Assembly: GCF_000429545.1 (NCBI RefSeq) | Contig: NZ_AUCB01000019.1 | Span: 1 to 64,000, forward strand | Source: Arenibacter certesii DSM 19833 | Lineage (GTDB): Bacteria > Bacteroidota > Bacteroidia > Flavobacteriales > Flavobacteriaceae | Length of the DNA stretch: 64,000 nt | Reading direction: 5' to 3' | Shown: piece by piece, positions 26,380 through 64,000 of the stretch | Position numbering within the stretch: position 1 is the stretch's first letter | How the letters are laid out: each line of letters starts with the position of its first letter | Notes under the pieces: model-generated | The model's database searches: none | What the model was told of the DNA's origin: nothing | What the model saw: only the letters and a program-made list of their open reading frames with translations | Translations under genes and position numbers: made by a program

Positions 26380-27150
26380 TTACTCTTTTATGAAAGGGAT
26401 GGATTTTGACAAGAACTGTTTTGGGTTCTCCGCATGTAACCAATGTCCAGCATTACTAATAGTTTCTAAGGTGGCATTAGGAAAGTGCTTTTTTATTTCC
26501 ATCATATCGGAATCGGTGATATATTCGGATTTGTCTCCTCTTAAAAACAGGGTGGGTCCGGCATAAAAATCCGTGGTGCCAATATTTTCTCCTACCTCCT
26601 CCATGCGTTCGCTTAGTACCTCCAGATTAAACCTAAAATCGAGTACTCCTTTTTCTACCCAATATAAATTTTTGAGCAGAAATTGTCTTACACCAACTTG
26701 TCCTATATATGCTGCTAATCGTTTGTCTGCCTCTTGTCTAGAAGCGATCTCGCGGATTTTTATAGCGTTCAGTCCGTTAAGTATATCCTGGTGGTGGGGT
26801 GGGTAGTATTTTGGTGCTATATCTGCAACCAATAATTTTTCAACTTTTTCTGGGTGCTTGCATGCAAATAACATGGCAACCTTCCCGCCCATGCTGTGGC
26901 CTAGGACTGTAGCGCTAGGGATGTTATGATGGGACATGTAGCGATTTAGATCCGCTACCATTACATCATAGTTGAACTGGGGGGAGTGGAAACTTTTTCC
27001 ATGGTTTCGCTGGTCTATCAAATGAACCTGGAAACCTTCGTCAGCATATTTAGTGCCTATCGTTTTCCAATTGTCGAGCATTCCTAAAAATCCGTGTAGG
27101 ATAAGAATAGGTTCTCCTTCGCCAATAATATTGGAATGTAGTATTTCCAT
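26380..27150 (-). CDS. Alpha/beta-hydrolase, YbfF-esterase type
   Basis: A 256-residue alpha/beta hydrolase. The oxyanion motif ILHGFLGMLDNW (residues 18-29) and DQRNHGKS (46-53) precede the nucleophile elbow GHSMGGK (Ser96); Asp near FLRGDKSEYI (about 209) and His in AGHWLHAE (about 237) complete the triad. The pattern matches YbfF-like acyl-CoA/short-chain esterases and MenH-like hydrolases; natural substrate unknown. Separated from pdxJ by three bases, so almost certainly co-transcribed. Confidence 0.9.
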   Translation of the reverse strand: MEILHSNIIGEGEPILILHGFLGMLDNWKTIGTKYADEGFQVHLIDQRNHGKSFHSPQFNYDVMVADLNRYMSHHNIPSATVLGHSMGGKVAMLFACKHPEKVEKLLVADIAPKYYPPHHQDILNGLNAIKIREIASRQEADKRLAAYIGQVGVRQFLLKNLYWVEKGVLDFRFNLEVLSERMEEVGENIGTTDFYAGPTLFLRGDKSEYITDSDMMEIKKHFPNATLETISNAGHWLHAENPKQFLSKSIPFIKE

Positions 27151-59065: not shown

Positions 59066-59267
59066 GTCTAATTAAATTATAGGGTTTTATACTGTAATTC
59101 CAATTTTATCCATAGTTCTCTTATTTTTTTGCCCTGGTAAAAATGGGTCTTATGAATTACTTTTATTGTCCCTTCATGCTATATTCTGCTCGGGTGTACG
59201 ATGTTTGACGTAAATTATAATTTAAAGGCCGTTTATTGCTCCCTTAAAAAATCTTGTTAAACCTATT
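59066..59267. other. Intergenic, no feature seen
   Basis: This stretch between the GLPGLI gene and the metK promoter holds no gene or structured signal I can name. Confidence 0.5.
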
Positions 59268-59296
59268 TTGATTCGTCAGTAATTCTTGTACTTTTG
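59268..59296 (+). promoter_or_regulatory. Promoter of the metK leader
   Basis: TTG (59268-59270), 18 bases, TACTTTTG (59289-59296), an excellent consensus match. Transcription would begin a few bases before the SAM-II-like aptamer. Confidence 0.75.
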
Positions 59297-59310
59297 TGCC
59301 TGTAAAATTT

Positions 59311-59384
59311 ACGAGGAAGGATTTGACTGATTGCAACCTCTGAGGACCATAAAGAATTTTGGTCTAACAAAATGCTAAAGCAGT
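59311..59384 (+). promoter_or_regulatory. SAM-II (SAM-alpha)-like riboswitch in the metK leader
   Basis: The H-type pseudoknot of SAM-II can be drawn: P1 is GAGG (59313-59316) with CCTC (59337-59340); the P1 loop contains GATTTGACTGATTGCA, whose ACTG (59326-59329) pairs with CAGT (59381-59384) and whose GCA pairs with TGC (59373-59375); the conserved TGCTAAAG follows. A hairpin GACCA/TGGTC is inserted at about 59344-59363. The motifs GATTTG..ATTGCA and GCTAAA match the alphaproteobacterial SAM-II consensus as I know it. It sits 14 bases after the -7 element and about 90 bases before the metK ATG, so control of initiation or elongation is possible. Confidence 0.75.
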
Positions 59385-59475
59385 TTATGTTGTTTGTTGT
59401 TTTTGTAACTCTTGCAGCTACTCTTCTCTAGAATTCATCAAATCCTTGCCCTTATTTAGTTATATATATACGAAT

Positions 59476-60732
59476 ATGGCATATTTATTTACTTCAGAAT
59501 CCGTTAGTGAGGGACATCCCGATAAAATTGCAGACCAGATAAGTGATGCGCTTTTAGATAATTTCTTAGCCTTCGATCCGGAGAGCAAAGTGGCTTGTGA
59601 GACTTTAGTGACCACTGGGCAAGTAGTATTGGCTGGCGAAGTTAAGAGTCGCACCTACCTAGACGTTCAGCAGATAGCAAGGGATGTAATCAATAGGATT
59701 GGTTATACCAATGGGGAATATAAGTTTAGCGGGGATTCTTGCGGGGTTATTTCCTTGATCCATGAGCAGTCCCAAGATATCAATCAGGGAGTGGATAGAG
59801 GTGCTAAAGAAGATCAAGGCGCTGGTGACCAAGGGATGATGTTTGGATATGCCACTAGGGAAACCGATAATTATATGCCATTGGCTTTGGATATTTCTCA
59901 TAAGATTTTGCAAGTTTTGGCAGAACTAAGACGGGAAGGGACTCAGATTAGCTATTTGCGCCCCGATGCCAAAGCTCAAGTGACTATAGAATATTCTGAT
60001 GAAAATGTTCCGCAAAGAATAGATACCATTGTGGTTTCTACCCAGCATGATGAATTTGATGCTGACGATGCGGTGATGTTGGCGAAAATTAAAAAGGACA
60101 TAATTTCTATTTTAATCCCTAGGGTAAGGGAGCAATTGCCAGAAAATATTCAACTACTTTTTAATGATGAAATTAAATACCATATAAATCCAACCGGAAA
60201 ATTTGTAATTGGTGGGCCACATGGGGATACTGGTCTTACAGGAAGGAAAATTATTGTGGATACTTATGGTGGTAAAGGTGCCCATGGTGGTGGTGCATTT
60301 AGTGGTAAAGATCCAAGTAAGGTAGATAGAAGTGCTGCCTATGCAGCGAGACATGCGGCTAAGAATTTGGTTGCAGCTGGAGTTGCCGATGAGCTATTAC
60401 TACAAGTGAGCTACGCCATTGGGGTAGTAGAGCCAACCTCTATATTGGTGGATACTTACGGTACTGCCAAGGTAGATCTTACCGATGGGGAAATTGCTAA
60501 GAAAGTAGCGCATCTGTTTGATATGCGTCCCTTTGCCATAGAAGAGCGTTTGAAGCTGAGAAATCCAATATATTTGGAAACTGCAGCCTACGGACATATG
60601 GGTAAAGAACCCATTATAGTGACCAAAGTGTATGAATCTCCATATAATGGGAGAGTAGAAAAGGAAGTGGAATTGTTTACGTGGGAAAAATTAGATGCTT
60701 TGGACGAAGTAAAAAAAGCCTTTAATTTATAA
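59476..60732 (+). CDS. metK: S-adenosylmethionine synthase
   Basis: A 418-residue enzyme making SAM from methionine and ATP. N-terminal [14 protein letters not shown] (11-24, His14 binds the triphosphate), [12 protein letters not shown] near 118-129, and the C-terminal [20 protein letters not shown] phosphate loop. Length is normal. The start at 59476 (MAYLF) matches the family start; an in-frame ATG at 59446 would add ten residues within the leader. Preceded by a SAM-II-like aptamer; metY with a SAM-I riboswitch follows. Confidence 0.97.
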
Positions 60733-60778: not shown

Positions 60779-60807
60779 CATACCTAAAGTTCAAGCACTT
60801 ATTGAAT

Positions 60808-60944
60808 TGTTATCAAGAAAGGTGGAGGGAATAGACCCTTTGAAGCCTTAGCAACCCTTTGACCCCATGTCAATGAAGGTGCTACATTCTACCGAAACTA
60901 AAAATTGGACCCATAAGCGTCTAATGTAGTCAAGGCAGATAACA
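60808..60944 (+). promoter_or_regulatory. SAM-I (S-box) riboswitch upstream of metY
   Basis: Near-consensus S-box core: P1 TGTTATC/GATAACA closing 60808-60944, ATCAAGA..AGGTGGAGGGA (60812-60830), then GACCCTTTGAAGCC and GCAACC (P2-J2/3), GAAGGTGCTA..ATTCTACC (P3/P4) and a variable P4 hairpin before P1 closes. It senses S-adenosylmethionine; here it would lower metY expression when SAM is plentiful. Confidence 0.93.
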
Positions 60945-61069: not shown

Positions 61070-62362
61070 ATGAGTAATCAAAAATTTGCAACTAACGCGT
61101 TACACGCTGGTCACGATACCAATTTAACCGCAGGAACAAGAGCTGTACCGATTTATCAGAATACGGCGTATGTTTTTGATAATACAGACAATGCAGCTGG
61201 TAGATTTAATCTTTCCGAACCAGGATTTATTTATACAAGATTAAATAATCCTACTAATGATATCTTGGAAAAGCGTTTAGCTGCTTTGGAGGGTGGAATC
61301 GGAAGTGTAGTCACCGCATCTGGTACTGCTGCTATTTCTACCGCCTTGTTGGTGTTGTTAAAGACAGGGGATCATATTGTGGCATCTAGCAGTCTATACG
61401 GAGGTACTTATAATCTGTTAGCGGTTACTTTACCTAGATTTGGGATTACTACCACTTTTGTAGATCCAGGAGATGAGGAGAACTTTAGCAAAGCTATAAA
61501 GGAGAATACCCGTGCCATTTTTGTGGAGTCTTTAGGGAATCCAAAATTAGATGTGTTGGACTTAAAAGCGATTTCCAAGGTAGCTAAAAATGCCAAAATC
61601 CCGTTTATTGTAGATAATACCGTAGCAACGAGTGCTTTGGTAAAGCCAATAGATCATGGTGCCAATATAGTGATCCATTCCCTTACAAAATACATTAACG
61701 GAAATGGAACATCTATGGGGGGAGTAATCGTGGATGCTGGAACTTTTGATTGGAGCAGTGGTAAGTTCCCTGAGTTTACAGAACCATCTCCAGGGTATCA
61801 TGGATTGGTATATCATGACGTATTGGGTGCTGCTGCATTCATTGCCAAGGTGAGGATAGAAGGGTTAAGGGATCTTGGTGCCGCGCTAAGTCCATTTAAT
61901 GCATTCCAGATTATCCAAGGGTTGGAAACGCTAGAAATTAGAATAAAAAAACACAGCGAAAATGCTTTGGCCGTTGCAAAATGGCTTCAGGATAGGGAAG
62001 AAGTAGCTTGGGTGAATTATCCAGGACTACCATCAAGTCCTTACTACAAGCTTGCACAAGAGTATCTCCCTAAAGGACAAAGTGGAATTATCACTTTTGG
62101 GGTAAAAGGAGGATATGAGTCGGCCAAGAAAGTTGTGGACGAGACAAAACTATTTTCTCTTCTAGCCAATATTGGAGATACCAAATCACTTATTATCCAT
62201 CCAGCAAGTACCACTCATCAGCAATTGGATGACAATGCGCAACAAACCACTGGGGTTACCAAAGATCTAATACGTATTTGTGTAGGATTGGAAGACCTAG
62301 AAGACATAAAAGCGGATTTGGAGCAGGCATTTGCCGTAATCGATAAATCACATTTGGTTTAA
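61070..62362 (+). CDS. metY: O-acetylhomoserine sulfhydrylase
   Basis: A 430-residue PLP enzyme of the Cys/Met metabolism family. It converts O-acetylhomoserine plus sulfide to homocysteine. Signatures: ALHAGHD near the N-terminus, PIYQNTAYVF (25-34), GFIYTRLNNPTNDILEKRLA (46-65) and the PLP lysine Lys207 in HSLTKYINGNG, with HPASTTHQQL near 389. Length fits MetY (about 430) rather than shorter MetB/MetC. It is preceded by a SAM-I riboswitch and followed by a terminator and the metX-aspartokinase gene. Confidence 0.96.
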   Translation: MSNQKFATNALHAGHDTNLTAGTRAVPIYQNTAYVFDNTDNAAGRFNLSEPGFIYTRLNNPTNDILEKRLAALEGGIGSVVTASGTAAISTALLVLLKTGDHIVASSSLYGGTYNLLAVTLPRFGITTTFVDPGDEENFSKAIKENTRAIFVESLGNPKLDVLDLKAISKVAKNAKIPFIVDNTVATSALVKPIDHGANIVIHSLTKYINGNGTSMGGVIVDAGTFDWSSGKFPEFTEPSPGYHGLVYHDVLGAAAFIAKVRIEGLRDLGAALSPFNAFQIIQGLETLEIRIKKHSENALAVAKWLQDREEVAWVNYPGLPSSPYYKLAQEYLPKGQSGIITFGVKGGYESAKKVVDETKLFSLLANIGDTKSLIIHPASTTHQQLDDNAQQTTGVTKDLIRICVGLEDLEDIKADLEQAFAVIDKSHLV

Positions 62363-62500: not shown

Positions 62501-64000
62501 ATGCTACATCAACTTTCGATTCAGGATTACGTTACCGATAGCGGATACAAATTGGATATTAATTTGTCTTATGAGTTATTTGGACTCCCATTGCATACGG
62601 CGCCAATAATAATGGTAAACCATGCCTTGACCGGAAATTCTAATGTTGCTGGGGAACAGGGATGGTGGAAAACGCTCATTGGGGATGGAAAGTGTATCAA
62701 TACAAAGAAATATACAATACTATCTTTTAATATTCCAGGGAATGGGTATGACGGATTTGTTATTGATAATTATAAGGAATTTGTAGCAAGGGATATTGCT
62801 AGAATATTTCTTCTGGGCTTGGAGGCCTTAAAGATAAATCGACTTTATGCGTTAATAGGCGGTTCTTTGGGTGGAGGTATTGCTTGGGAAATGGCAGCTC
62901 TAGATCCTAACTTAATAGAGCATTTAATTCCTGTCGCATCCGATTGGAAATCTACAGATTGGTTAATTGGTAACTGCCAAATACAAGAGCAGTTTTTGAT
63001 CAATTCAAAACAGCCAGTACATGATGCCCGTATGCATGCCATGTTATGTTATAGAACTCCAGAATCTTTTAAAGAGCGTTTTAAAAGGAGTACCAACGAG
63101 GAACTTAACGTATTTAATGTGGAGAGTTGGTTAACGCATCATGGTAATAAATTACAGGAACGTTTTCAGCTGTCGGCTTATAAATTAATGAACCAATTGC
63201 TGAAGACCATAGATATTACCCGTAATGGTGAGGAAGCTTTTGAAGCTTTGCAAAACAGCAATACCAATATCCATATCATTGGGGTAGATTCCGATCTGTT
63301 TTTTACTGCAAGGGAGAACAAGGATACCTTTAAAAAATTAGCACAAGCTAACAGTAATGTAACCTATGGAGAAATTCAGTCCCTTCATGGCCACGATGCG
63401 TTCTTAATCGAATTTAAGCAGATGGAAGAACTGCTAAAAGGAATCTTCGATCTAAATGGTAGGTCTAAAAAGATTAAAGTTCTAAAGTTTGGAGGTAAAT
63501 CCTTGGCAAATGGAGAAGGTTTGGATTCTGTTGTTCGAATAATTTCTGGAAAGGTGGCGGCAGGTGAGAATATGGCGGTAGTGGTCTCGGCAAGGAATAA
63601 AGCAACGGATGAACTAGAAAGTATTTTGGATAAGGCGGCTAGAGGTGTTGAATATAGTAAAGATTTAAAGGAATTTGAAAAATATCAAAAGCACCAGTTT
63701 ACCAATATAGACACTTCCGAAGAGATAAAGGGCTTGAAGAAACTATTTGAAGGAGTGGCTATTTTGGGGGATTATAGTCTTAAGATAAAAGATCAGGTAT
63801 TGGCCTGCGGTGAAATTTTATCAGCCAAATTATTGACTCAAATTTTATTGGACAAAGGAATAAAAGCCAGATTTGTAGATACCCGAAAGTTAATAAAGAC
63901 CGATAGCAATTTTGGGGATGCAAAAGTGCTTGACTCCCTATCTAAAGAAAATGTTATACGGGAATTTGCGGATCAGGATGAAGATATCGTATCTATTGCT
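62501..64000 (+). CDS. MetX-like homoserine acetyltransferase fused to aspartokinase (partial, runs off right edge)
   Basis: An open frame of 500 codons with no stop before the edge. Residues 1-320 are an alpha/beta-hydrolase of the MetX type: HALTGNSN (41-48), FNIPGNGYDGF (76-86), elbow GGSLGGG with Ser122, Asp in GVDSDLFF (about 266) and His in LHGHDAF (about 303), giving homoserine O-acetylation. Residues 326-500 start an aspartokinase with KVLKFGGKSLANGEGL (326-341) and VVVSARNKATDEL, as in ThrA-type aspartokinase-homoserine dehydrogenases. In flavobacteria such fusions usually continue into homoserine dehydrogenase, which would lie beyond the window. The whole protein would make aspartyl phosphate, homoserine and O-acetylhomoserine for MetY. 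Confidence 0.92.
   Translation, partial: MLHQLSIQDYVTDSGYKLDINLSYELFGLPLHTAPIIMVNHALTGNSNVAGEQGWWKTLIGDGKCINTKKYTILSFNIPGNGYDGFVIDNYKEFVARDIARIFLLGLEALKINRLYALIGGSLGGGIAWEMAALDPNLIEHLIPVASDWKSTDWLIGNCQIQEQFLINSKQPVHDARMHAMLCYRTPESFKERFKRSTNEELNVFNVESWLTHHGNKLQERFQLSAYKLMNQLLKTIDITRNGEEAFEALQNSNTNIHIIGVDSDLFFTARENKDTFKKLAQANSNVTYGEIQSLHGHDAFLIEFKQMEELLKGIFDLNGRSKKIKVLKFGGKSLANGEGLDSVVRIISGKVAAGENMAVVVSARNKATDELESILDKAARGVEYSKDLKEFEKYQKHQFTNIDTSEEIKGLKKLFEGVAILGDYSLKIKDQVLACGEILSAKLLTQILLDKGIKARFVDTRKLIKTDSNFGDAKVLDSLSKENVIREFADQDEDIVSIA

Follow-up and report, generated by a model that had tools for sequence, protein, structure and literature searches.

Known SAM-II riboswitches

The SAM-II riboswitch of Proteobacteria (RF00521) is an H-type pseudoknot aptamer for SAM, with core blocks similar to those of the aptamer described here. 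The class has been counted among the direct-occlusion switches, P2 containing the ribosome-binding site (as stated in passages of PMC10907184). Two cases from Sinorhizobium meliloti are described in parts of PMC9373788: the metA SAM-II acts on a start codon 74 nt away and needs a Shine-Dalgarno (SD) sequence in the aptamer, and the metZ SAM-II works by structural exchange in its platform, with a predicted intrinsic terminator. From Bacteroidetes and marine sequences, "SAM-II long loops" (RF01726) appear in Table 1 of Weinberg 2010 (PMC2864571, in the portion with that table). Given this 2010 listing, neither the aptamer nor its presence in the taxon is new.

SAM-II is thus filed as an SD-hiding switch, and Bacteroidetes mRNAs are without SD sequences (abstract of PMC6847099), which raises the question of how SAM-II works in Bacteroidota. 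Because SD sequences are not used in the phylum (PMC6847099 and PMC9976891, both in part), direct SD occlusion is unlikely here. The main-text parts of the 2010 paper, which refers to an additional file for details of the SAM-II expansion, hold no answer as to mechanism. A search of the open-licence PMC literature, supplementary files (PMC2864571 Additional File 1) excluded, found no anti-aptamer platform for SAM-II, and PMC12121620 does not mention SAM-II. As far as the literature searched goes, the expression platform put forward below would be an undescribed variant.

The aptamer and its distribution

The window, that is, the whole 64,000-nt stretch of Arenibacter certesii DNA analysed, was compared with Rfam using cmscan. 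The match to RF01726, "SAM-II long loop", exceeded the gathering score (Table 1), had an E value of 5.2e-9 over the whole window and covered model positions 1-60 of 60. Judged by this covariance model, the aptamer is confirmed as a SAM-II class member of a known family; it fits the full-length model and comes from the same phylum as the RF01726 family of PMC2864571, the Table 1 and main text of which, in the parts available, give taxa and status and no platform, unlike the present account. An earlier note, made from the DNA letters, had recognised a SAM-II-type pseudoknot with conserved GATTTG, ATTGCA and GCTAAA blocks, and this was borne out, the three blocks and both P1 and P2 being present. 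It had erred in the choice of Rfam family: RF00521, the proteobacterial SAM-II that includes the metX aptamer crystal structure, gave no cmscan match in 59200-59700 even at E up to 5. Matches to L19-Flavobacteria and KCNQ1OT1_1, seen in the same interval at relaxed E, were dismissed as far under their cut-offs.

Table 1. Features of the SAM-II/metK region, with positions in the window and the basis of each call
Feature	Position	Strand	Basis
Presumed promoter, Bacteroidota-type: TTTTG 59266-59270 and TACTTTTG 59289-59296	59266..59296	+	sequence
SAM-II (long loop) aptamer, RF01726	59307..59388	+	cmscan 59.9 bits, cut-off 44
P1: GAGG 59313-59316 with CCTC 59337-59340	59313..59340	+	RF01726 alignment
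H1 5' strand (GAGG AAGGATTTGA), shared with aptamer	59313..59326	+	free MFE, centroid; family swap tests
P2 pseudoknot: ACTG 59326-59329 with CAGT 59381-59384	59326..59384	+	sequence
Inserted hairpin in long pseudoknot loop: GGACCA 59344-59349 / TGGTCT 59360-59365	59344..59365	+	z -2.2
Candidate H2: CTAAAGcAG 59375-59383 with CTtCTcTAG 59423-59431	59375..59431	+	segment MFE
Expression platform, P2 to metK, 91 nt	59385..59475	+	50-116 nt in 139 metK leaders
H1 3' strand: TCAAATCCTT 59438-59447, GC bulge, CCTT 59450-59453	59438..59453	+	duplex here in 18/18 genus species
metK, SAM synthetase	59476..60732	+	TIGR01034 505 bits, cut-off 309
SAM-I (S-box) riboswitch before metY homologue	60807..60919	+	RF00162 59.4 bits, cut-off 44.4
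O-acetylhomoserine sulfhydrylase, metY type	61070..62362	+	TIGR01326 648 bits, cut-off 495
Fusion frame, MetX-like (residues 11-315) and aspartate-kinase-like (327-485)	62501-64000	+	below curated cut-offs

The family survey covered 149 Flavobacteriaceae genomes, one per genus and drawn from a larger group. RF01726 was found in 141 of these, in all 18 genomes of the window's genus and, in a sample of 296 genomes from the phylum, in 45, of which 30 belong to the window's family; among 14 control genomes only one Bacteroides gave a match. All 144 loci from the 149-genome search were fetched and anchored, two of them (in genomes G122 and G085) scoring below the RF01726 cut-off. The phylum search added 28 loci (L145-L172), several duplicating family genomes, of which L166 and L171 could not be anchored; the platform statistics below cover the family leaders, these 28 lying outside the platform test. 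The promoter that the earlier note had placed upstream of the aptamer also has family-wide support. It fits the Bacteroidota promoter consensus (TTTTG / TAnnTTTG), and its TAnnTTTG box, at 59289-59296 in the window, recurs 5' of the aptamer in 140 of the 144 loci against a shuffle mean of 9.75; a scan for sigma-70 type promoters found nothing at the window's leader.

The gene behind the aptamer is metK at 139 of the 144 loci, in agreement with the assignment first made for this window, where the product meets TIGR01034 (Table 1). By eye, from the translated starts, the aptamer of L010 precedes a metY-like gene and that of L070 a methionine-synthase-like (metH-like) gene. Three genomes of 1.3-1.9 Mb (G081, G004 and G052) have two SAM-II copies each, with copies (L142, L143 and L144) before genes other than metK.

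P1 is kept through compensatory change across the 144 family loci, as GAGG/CCTC in 134, AGGG/CCCT in five and AAGG/CCTT in one, the other four falling outside the register of the script. The CTG/CAG core of P2 is nearly invariant, and its outer pair is lost in some loci (for example TCTG with CAGT in 14 of 144). The compensatory change anticipated for the two helices was therefore found for P1 and hardly for P2, where the one exchange, ATTG/CAAT, is that of L070. In two loci from another family of the same class (L149 and L158), P1 reads GTGG/CCAC by eye, a further compensatory exchange. In L171, a leader from another family of the class, a hairpin standing between GATTTG and GATTGCAACC appears to divide the SAM-II core. 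The extra hairpin in the pseudoknot loop is real in the window, slightly longer than the limits of 59344-59363 first given to it. An insert of at least 20 nt occurs there in 64 of the 144 loci, with a mean z of -3.4 and 56 of the 64 under -1.5. The other 80 loci have less than 20 nt in this place, contrary to the suggestion that the hairpin might mark Bacteroidota; it is an optional variable loop, genuine where present, and not a mark of the phylum.

Two SAM sensors around metK

The gene row reads SAM-II, metK, SAM-I, metY-type gene and MetX-aspartate kinase fusion, the last continuing past the window end, so that metK is flanked by two unrelated SAM sensors. The SAM-I (S-box) element, like SAM-II, senses SAM in the same gene row; it belongs to another Rfam family (RF00162) with another fold and stands between metK and the metY homologue. 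Neither this second riboswitch nor the expression platform had appeared in the earlier note. SAM-I was found in 118 of the 149 family genomes, 114 of which also have SAM-II and four of which do not. The sharing of both sensors by most family genomes (114/149) runs against the statement of the 2007 survey, as it stands in the available part of that source. A pattern search at the 144 loci placed SAM-I downstream of the SAM-II gene, in tandem, in at least 16 and divergently before that gene in at least 22, counts which are lower bounds because 30 loci extend only 1500 nt downstream.

At the metK start of relatives, the serines of TSESVSEG are encoded by codons of the AGT..TCT type in some genera and of the TCT..AGT type in others. 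The AGT..TCT type yields a coding-region hairpin at the metK start in L098 and L101, and a structural constraint is a possible cause of the codon pattern.

A platform strand complementary to the aptamer

The window's platform includes a strand that is the reverse complement to the 5' half of the aptamer: AAGGATTTGA at 59317-59326 pairs with TCAAATCCTT at 59438-59447 with zero mismatch. This predicted helix, H1, is lengthened by GAGG with CCTT beyond a two-base bulge, and it is the core of the centroid fold in the window. It occupies the P1 5' strand, the GATTTG block and the first P2 base and is therefore incompatible with the aptamer. Judged from the window by itself, the pairing does not exceed chance expectation (duplex z -0.9, 16 of 100 shuffles equally good; leader fold z -0.78, 52 of 200 equally good), and its support comes from relatives. 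H1 can form at the same place in all 18 genus members and is part of the free MFE of 13 of them, and the mean z of the leader fold in the genus is -2.1. The platform is divergent in the genus; by eye, CTTCT(C/T)TA is retained in all 18 members and TCAAAT in 15 of them.

Across the 139 metK leaders, the ATGCTAAAG block ends 50-116 nt (median 66) before the ATG. CAAAT, which faces ATTTG of the aptamer, occurs in 92 of the 139 platforms (shuffles 24.8 +/- 5.1), and CAAAT or GCAAT (against ATTTG and ATTGC) in 111 (shuffles 31.6 +/- 5.3); neither word is present in 28. The best aptamer-platform duplex ranked at or below 5 of 100 shuffles in 89 of the 139 leaders.

The words themselves differ between lineages. 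A GTCAAATC-type word is present in many leaders, and L050 retains GAATAATTTGGTC against GACCAAATTATTC. In other lineages different platform words face the same aptamer at other places: in L162 and L168 the word is GCAATTATTTTTCCTC, which faces GAGGAAAAAT...ATTGC and has near variants in other leaders of the same family, and three members of a group of nine genera have TCAAATCCTTCC. The near invariance of the GTCAAATC-type element within the genus is what would be expected of a protein site, and the element might be bound by a protein or a small RNA, its complementarity to the aptamer being incidental. We regard this as very improbable, given that lineages with GCAATTATTTTTCCTC or TCAAATCCTTCC direct different words at other stretches of the aptamer and that platform variants match aptamer variants.

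That match was measured by exchanging platforms among aptamers. Native aptamer-platform pairs averaged -17.0 kcal/mol, against -15.3 for permuted pairs (sd 0.16), a difference reached in none of 5000 permutations. Thinning by the MetK tree, to 116, 81 or 56 genera, left the result at 0/5000, as did restriction to the 95 leaders having GATTTGAC in common. Swaps within four small AATTTG classes of 5 to 9 members gave 4468 of 5000 in one class, which is contrary, and 431, 413 and 358 of 5000 in the others, which is weak. For 70 of the 139 loci, picked at random, the platform gave a swap z of -8.7, and the controls gave +1.3 (reversed platform), -0.7 (upstream of the promoter) and +1.0 (CDS+200); the first coding bases showed a slight signal too (z -2.3, 57/5000).

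Position by position, the 92 leaders anchored on ATTTG/CAAAT have A-T in 43, G-C in 17, G-T in five and T-A in two at offset -2, where pairing was 0.74 against 0.59 permuted (0/5000). At offset -1 it was 0.90 against 0.84 (p 0.0002), offsets -3 and +2 were weakly better than permuted (p 0.04 and 0.03), and the other eleven of the 15 flanking positions paired no better than permuted. A tree-corrected count at offset -2 gave 1.1 changes the same way and 0.1 opposite, that is, few independent changes. Taken as predicted pairing, these comparisons show that the aptamer has a complementary strand in the platform and that the two co-vary family-wide.

Co-variation with the aptamer is not to be expected of a neutral spacer, and such a spacer is therefore unlikely. 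This bears on direct occlusion as in the metX SAM-II, in which the pseudoknot would hide the ribosome entry site and the leader would be neutral. The aptamer class is the same and has been grouped with direct-occlusion switches (PMC10907184, in part), and within the family the P2 3' strand of L070 (G055:C3, SAM-II 26710-26768), which carries the ATTG/CAAT exchange, runs directly into the ATG of the methionine-synthase-like gene, an apparent direct occlusion of the start codon. The occlusion described for RF00521 concerns the ribosome-binding site (same passages of PMC10907184), whereas in the window P2 ends 91 nt before the metK ATG, the aptamer's 3' strand holds neither ribosome-binding site nor start codon, and the ATGCTAAAG block stays 50-116 nt from the ATG throughout the 139 leaders. 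With SD use absent in Bacteroidetes (abstract of PMC6847099) and with the co-variation just described, direct occlusion at metK is unlikely.

The candidate second hairpin

A second, candidate hairpin, H2, would engage GCTAAAG along with some bases of the P2 3' strand (CAGT). When the segment was folded in isolation, the MFE showed this hairpin, by eye, in 17 of 18 members of the genus, the window among them, with a mean z in the genus of -1.8; in the window alone its z is 0.3, which is not significant. RNAalifold on the genus H2 alignment gave -0.5 kcal/mol, with 48 of 200 column shuffles equally good, possibly because of misaligned loops. Family-wide the signal is weak, with 21 of 139 leaders at or below 5 of 100 shuffles and a swap z of -1.85. 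Of the leaders with GCTAAAGG, 41 of 44 contain CCTT or CCTG, as do 33 of 69 leaders with GCTAAAG; CTTTAG-type words are present in 37 of those 69 and in none of those 44. The family-wide support for H2 is thus mainly a lineage-bound word match.

Proposed switch and its output

We consider it probable, from the pairing patterns above, that SAM-II feedback on metK acts by strand exchange and not by an SD sequence hidden inside the aptamer. When SAM is scarce, the transcribed platform would pair with the aptamer through H1, the pocket would be destroyed and metK would be expressed; H2 would perhaps assist by capturing GCTAAAG and some bases of CAGT. If instead the nascent aptamer binds SAM at a time when the H1 3' strand is still to appear, P1 and P2 would hold, the platform would be released and metK would be shut down. 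The final step may take two forms. In nine of the 139 genera the released platform would close a hairpin just 5' of the start codon, suggesting a block of translation, and in the remaining genera release would mainly bare a C-rich, G-poor single strand suited to Rho or RNase. Action at a distance or platform exchange is shared with the S. meliloti metA and metZ switches; the window differs in that no terminator was found, as opposed to metZ, and in that Bacteroidetes make no use of the SD, which metA has.

The predicted energetics are compatible with such an exchange. The free MFE was more stable than the MFE with P1 enforced, the latter calculated without P2 and without SAM, by a median of 5.3 kcal/mol; under the same terms the free fold was ahead by more than 3 kcal/mol in 104 of 138 leaders and by 9.9 in the window. 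Synthesis of the H1 core (CAAAT) follows completion of the aptamer by a median of 26 nt in 92 leaders and by about 54 nt in the window. Such timing is suited to a decision taken while the RNA is still nascent.

With the aptamer occupied, the platform is predicted to open in 135 of the 139 leaders, the mean unpaired probability rising from 0.37 to 0.57, with a small rise from 0.42 to 0.48 in the window. In the nine-genus group, a TTGCTTT...AAAGCA hairpin closes just before the ATG in the occupied state; in most of the nine, TTGCTTT could alternatively pair with an AAAGCA inside the aptamer. Predicted access to positions -18..-1 falls from 0.63 to 0.49 in this group (lower in 7/9), and the pre-ATG hairpin argues for SAM as an off signal acting through translation. 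In the other 130 genera access to the same positions hardly moves (0.58 to 0.55, lower in 82 of 130), and a general sequestration of the start region in the SAM-bound state is unsupported beyond the nine genera.

An off signal is also to be expected because metK makes SAM, and we infer that SAM plays this part. The reverse, with SAM turning metK on and the H1/H2 state being the blocked one, would agree with the more paired platform of the free fold and with the tuning of translation by start-codon structure in Flavobacterium johnsoniae (passages of PMC6847099). Yet SAM-II also precedes metY-like (L010) and metH-like (L070) genes, and in the nine-genus group access before the ATG drops in the occupied and not in the free state (0.63 to 0.49, 7/9); SAM as an on signal is accordingly given little credence.

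The opening of the platform and its C-rich, G-poor makeup make Rho or RNase a serious rival as to output. The H1 switch would be the same, in overlap with the explanation preferred here, and SAM would expose the platform so that the transcript is cut before metK. Platforms contain 23.9% C and 11.6% G, against 15.8% and 14.3% further upstream, they open as described (0.37 to 0.57, 135/139), and Rho is encoded in the window's genome (647 bits). Intrinsic terminators (hairpin and U-run) are not general, having been found in none of the window's leader and in eight of 139 family leaders against 4.8 +/- 1.6 in ten shuffles, a small excess, and an intrinsic terminator was rejected for the window. 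Against an output at the RNA level, the C-richness is partly explained by the purine-rich aptamer strand with which the platform pairs, CAAAT ends at a fairly constant distance from the ATG (median 24, quartiles 21-31, 92 leaders), which fits a translational role, and the window's own rise is small (0.42 to 0.48). Such an output has, in our view, somewhat less than an even chance.

A leader-peptide ORF at 59387-59431 (14 residues), right after the aptamer, was considered and rejected: only 10 of the 139 leaders have an ATG no more than 18 nt from that position, and the products are dissimilar in length and sequence.

Significance

On balance we lean slightly towards a wider reading, in which the SAM-II of Flavobacteriaceae has lost its coupling to SD occlusion and is wired instead to an anti-aptamer of two parts, H1 against the 5' half and H2 against the 3' half, that would decide SAM capture in the nascent transcript. 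Its words would differ by lineage with the target constant, and a platform of this type, undescribed for SAM-II in the literature found, would suit ribosomes that do not read the SD. If strand exchange is true, these bacteria would switch metK without the ribosome-binding signal that they lack. A conserved anti-aptamer platform offers a concrete and testable answer to how SAM-II works in Bacteroidota, and it may extend to other pseudoknot riboswitches of the phylum.
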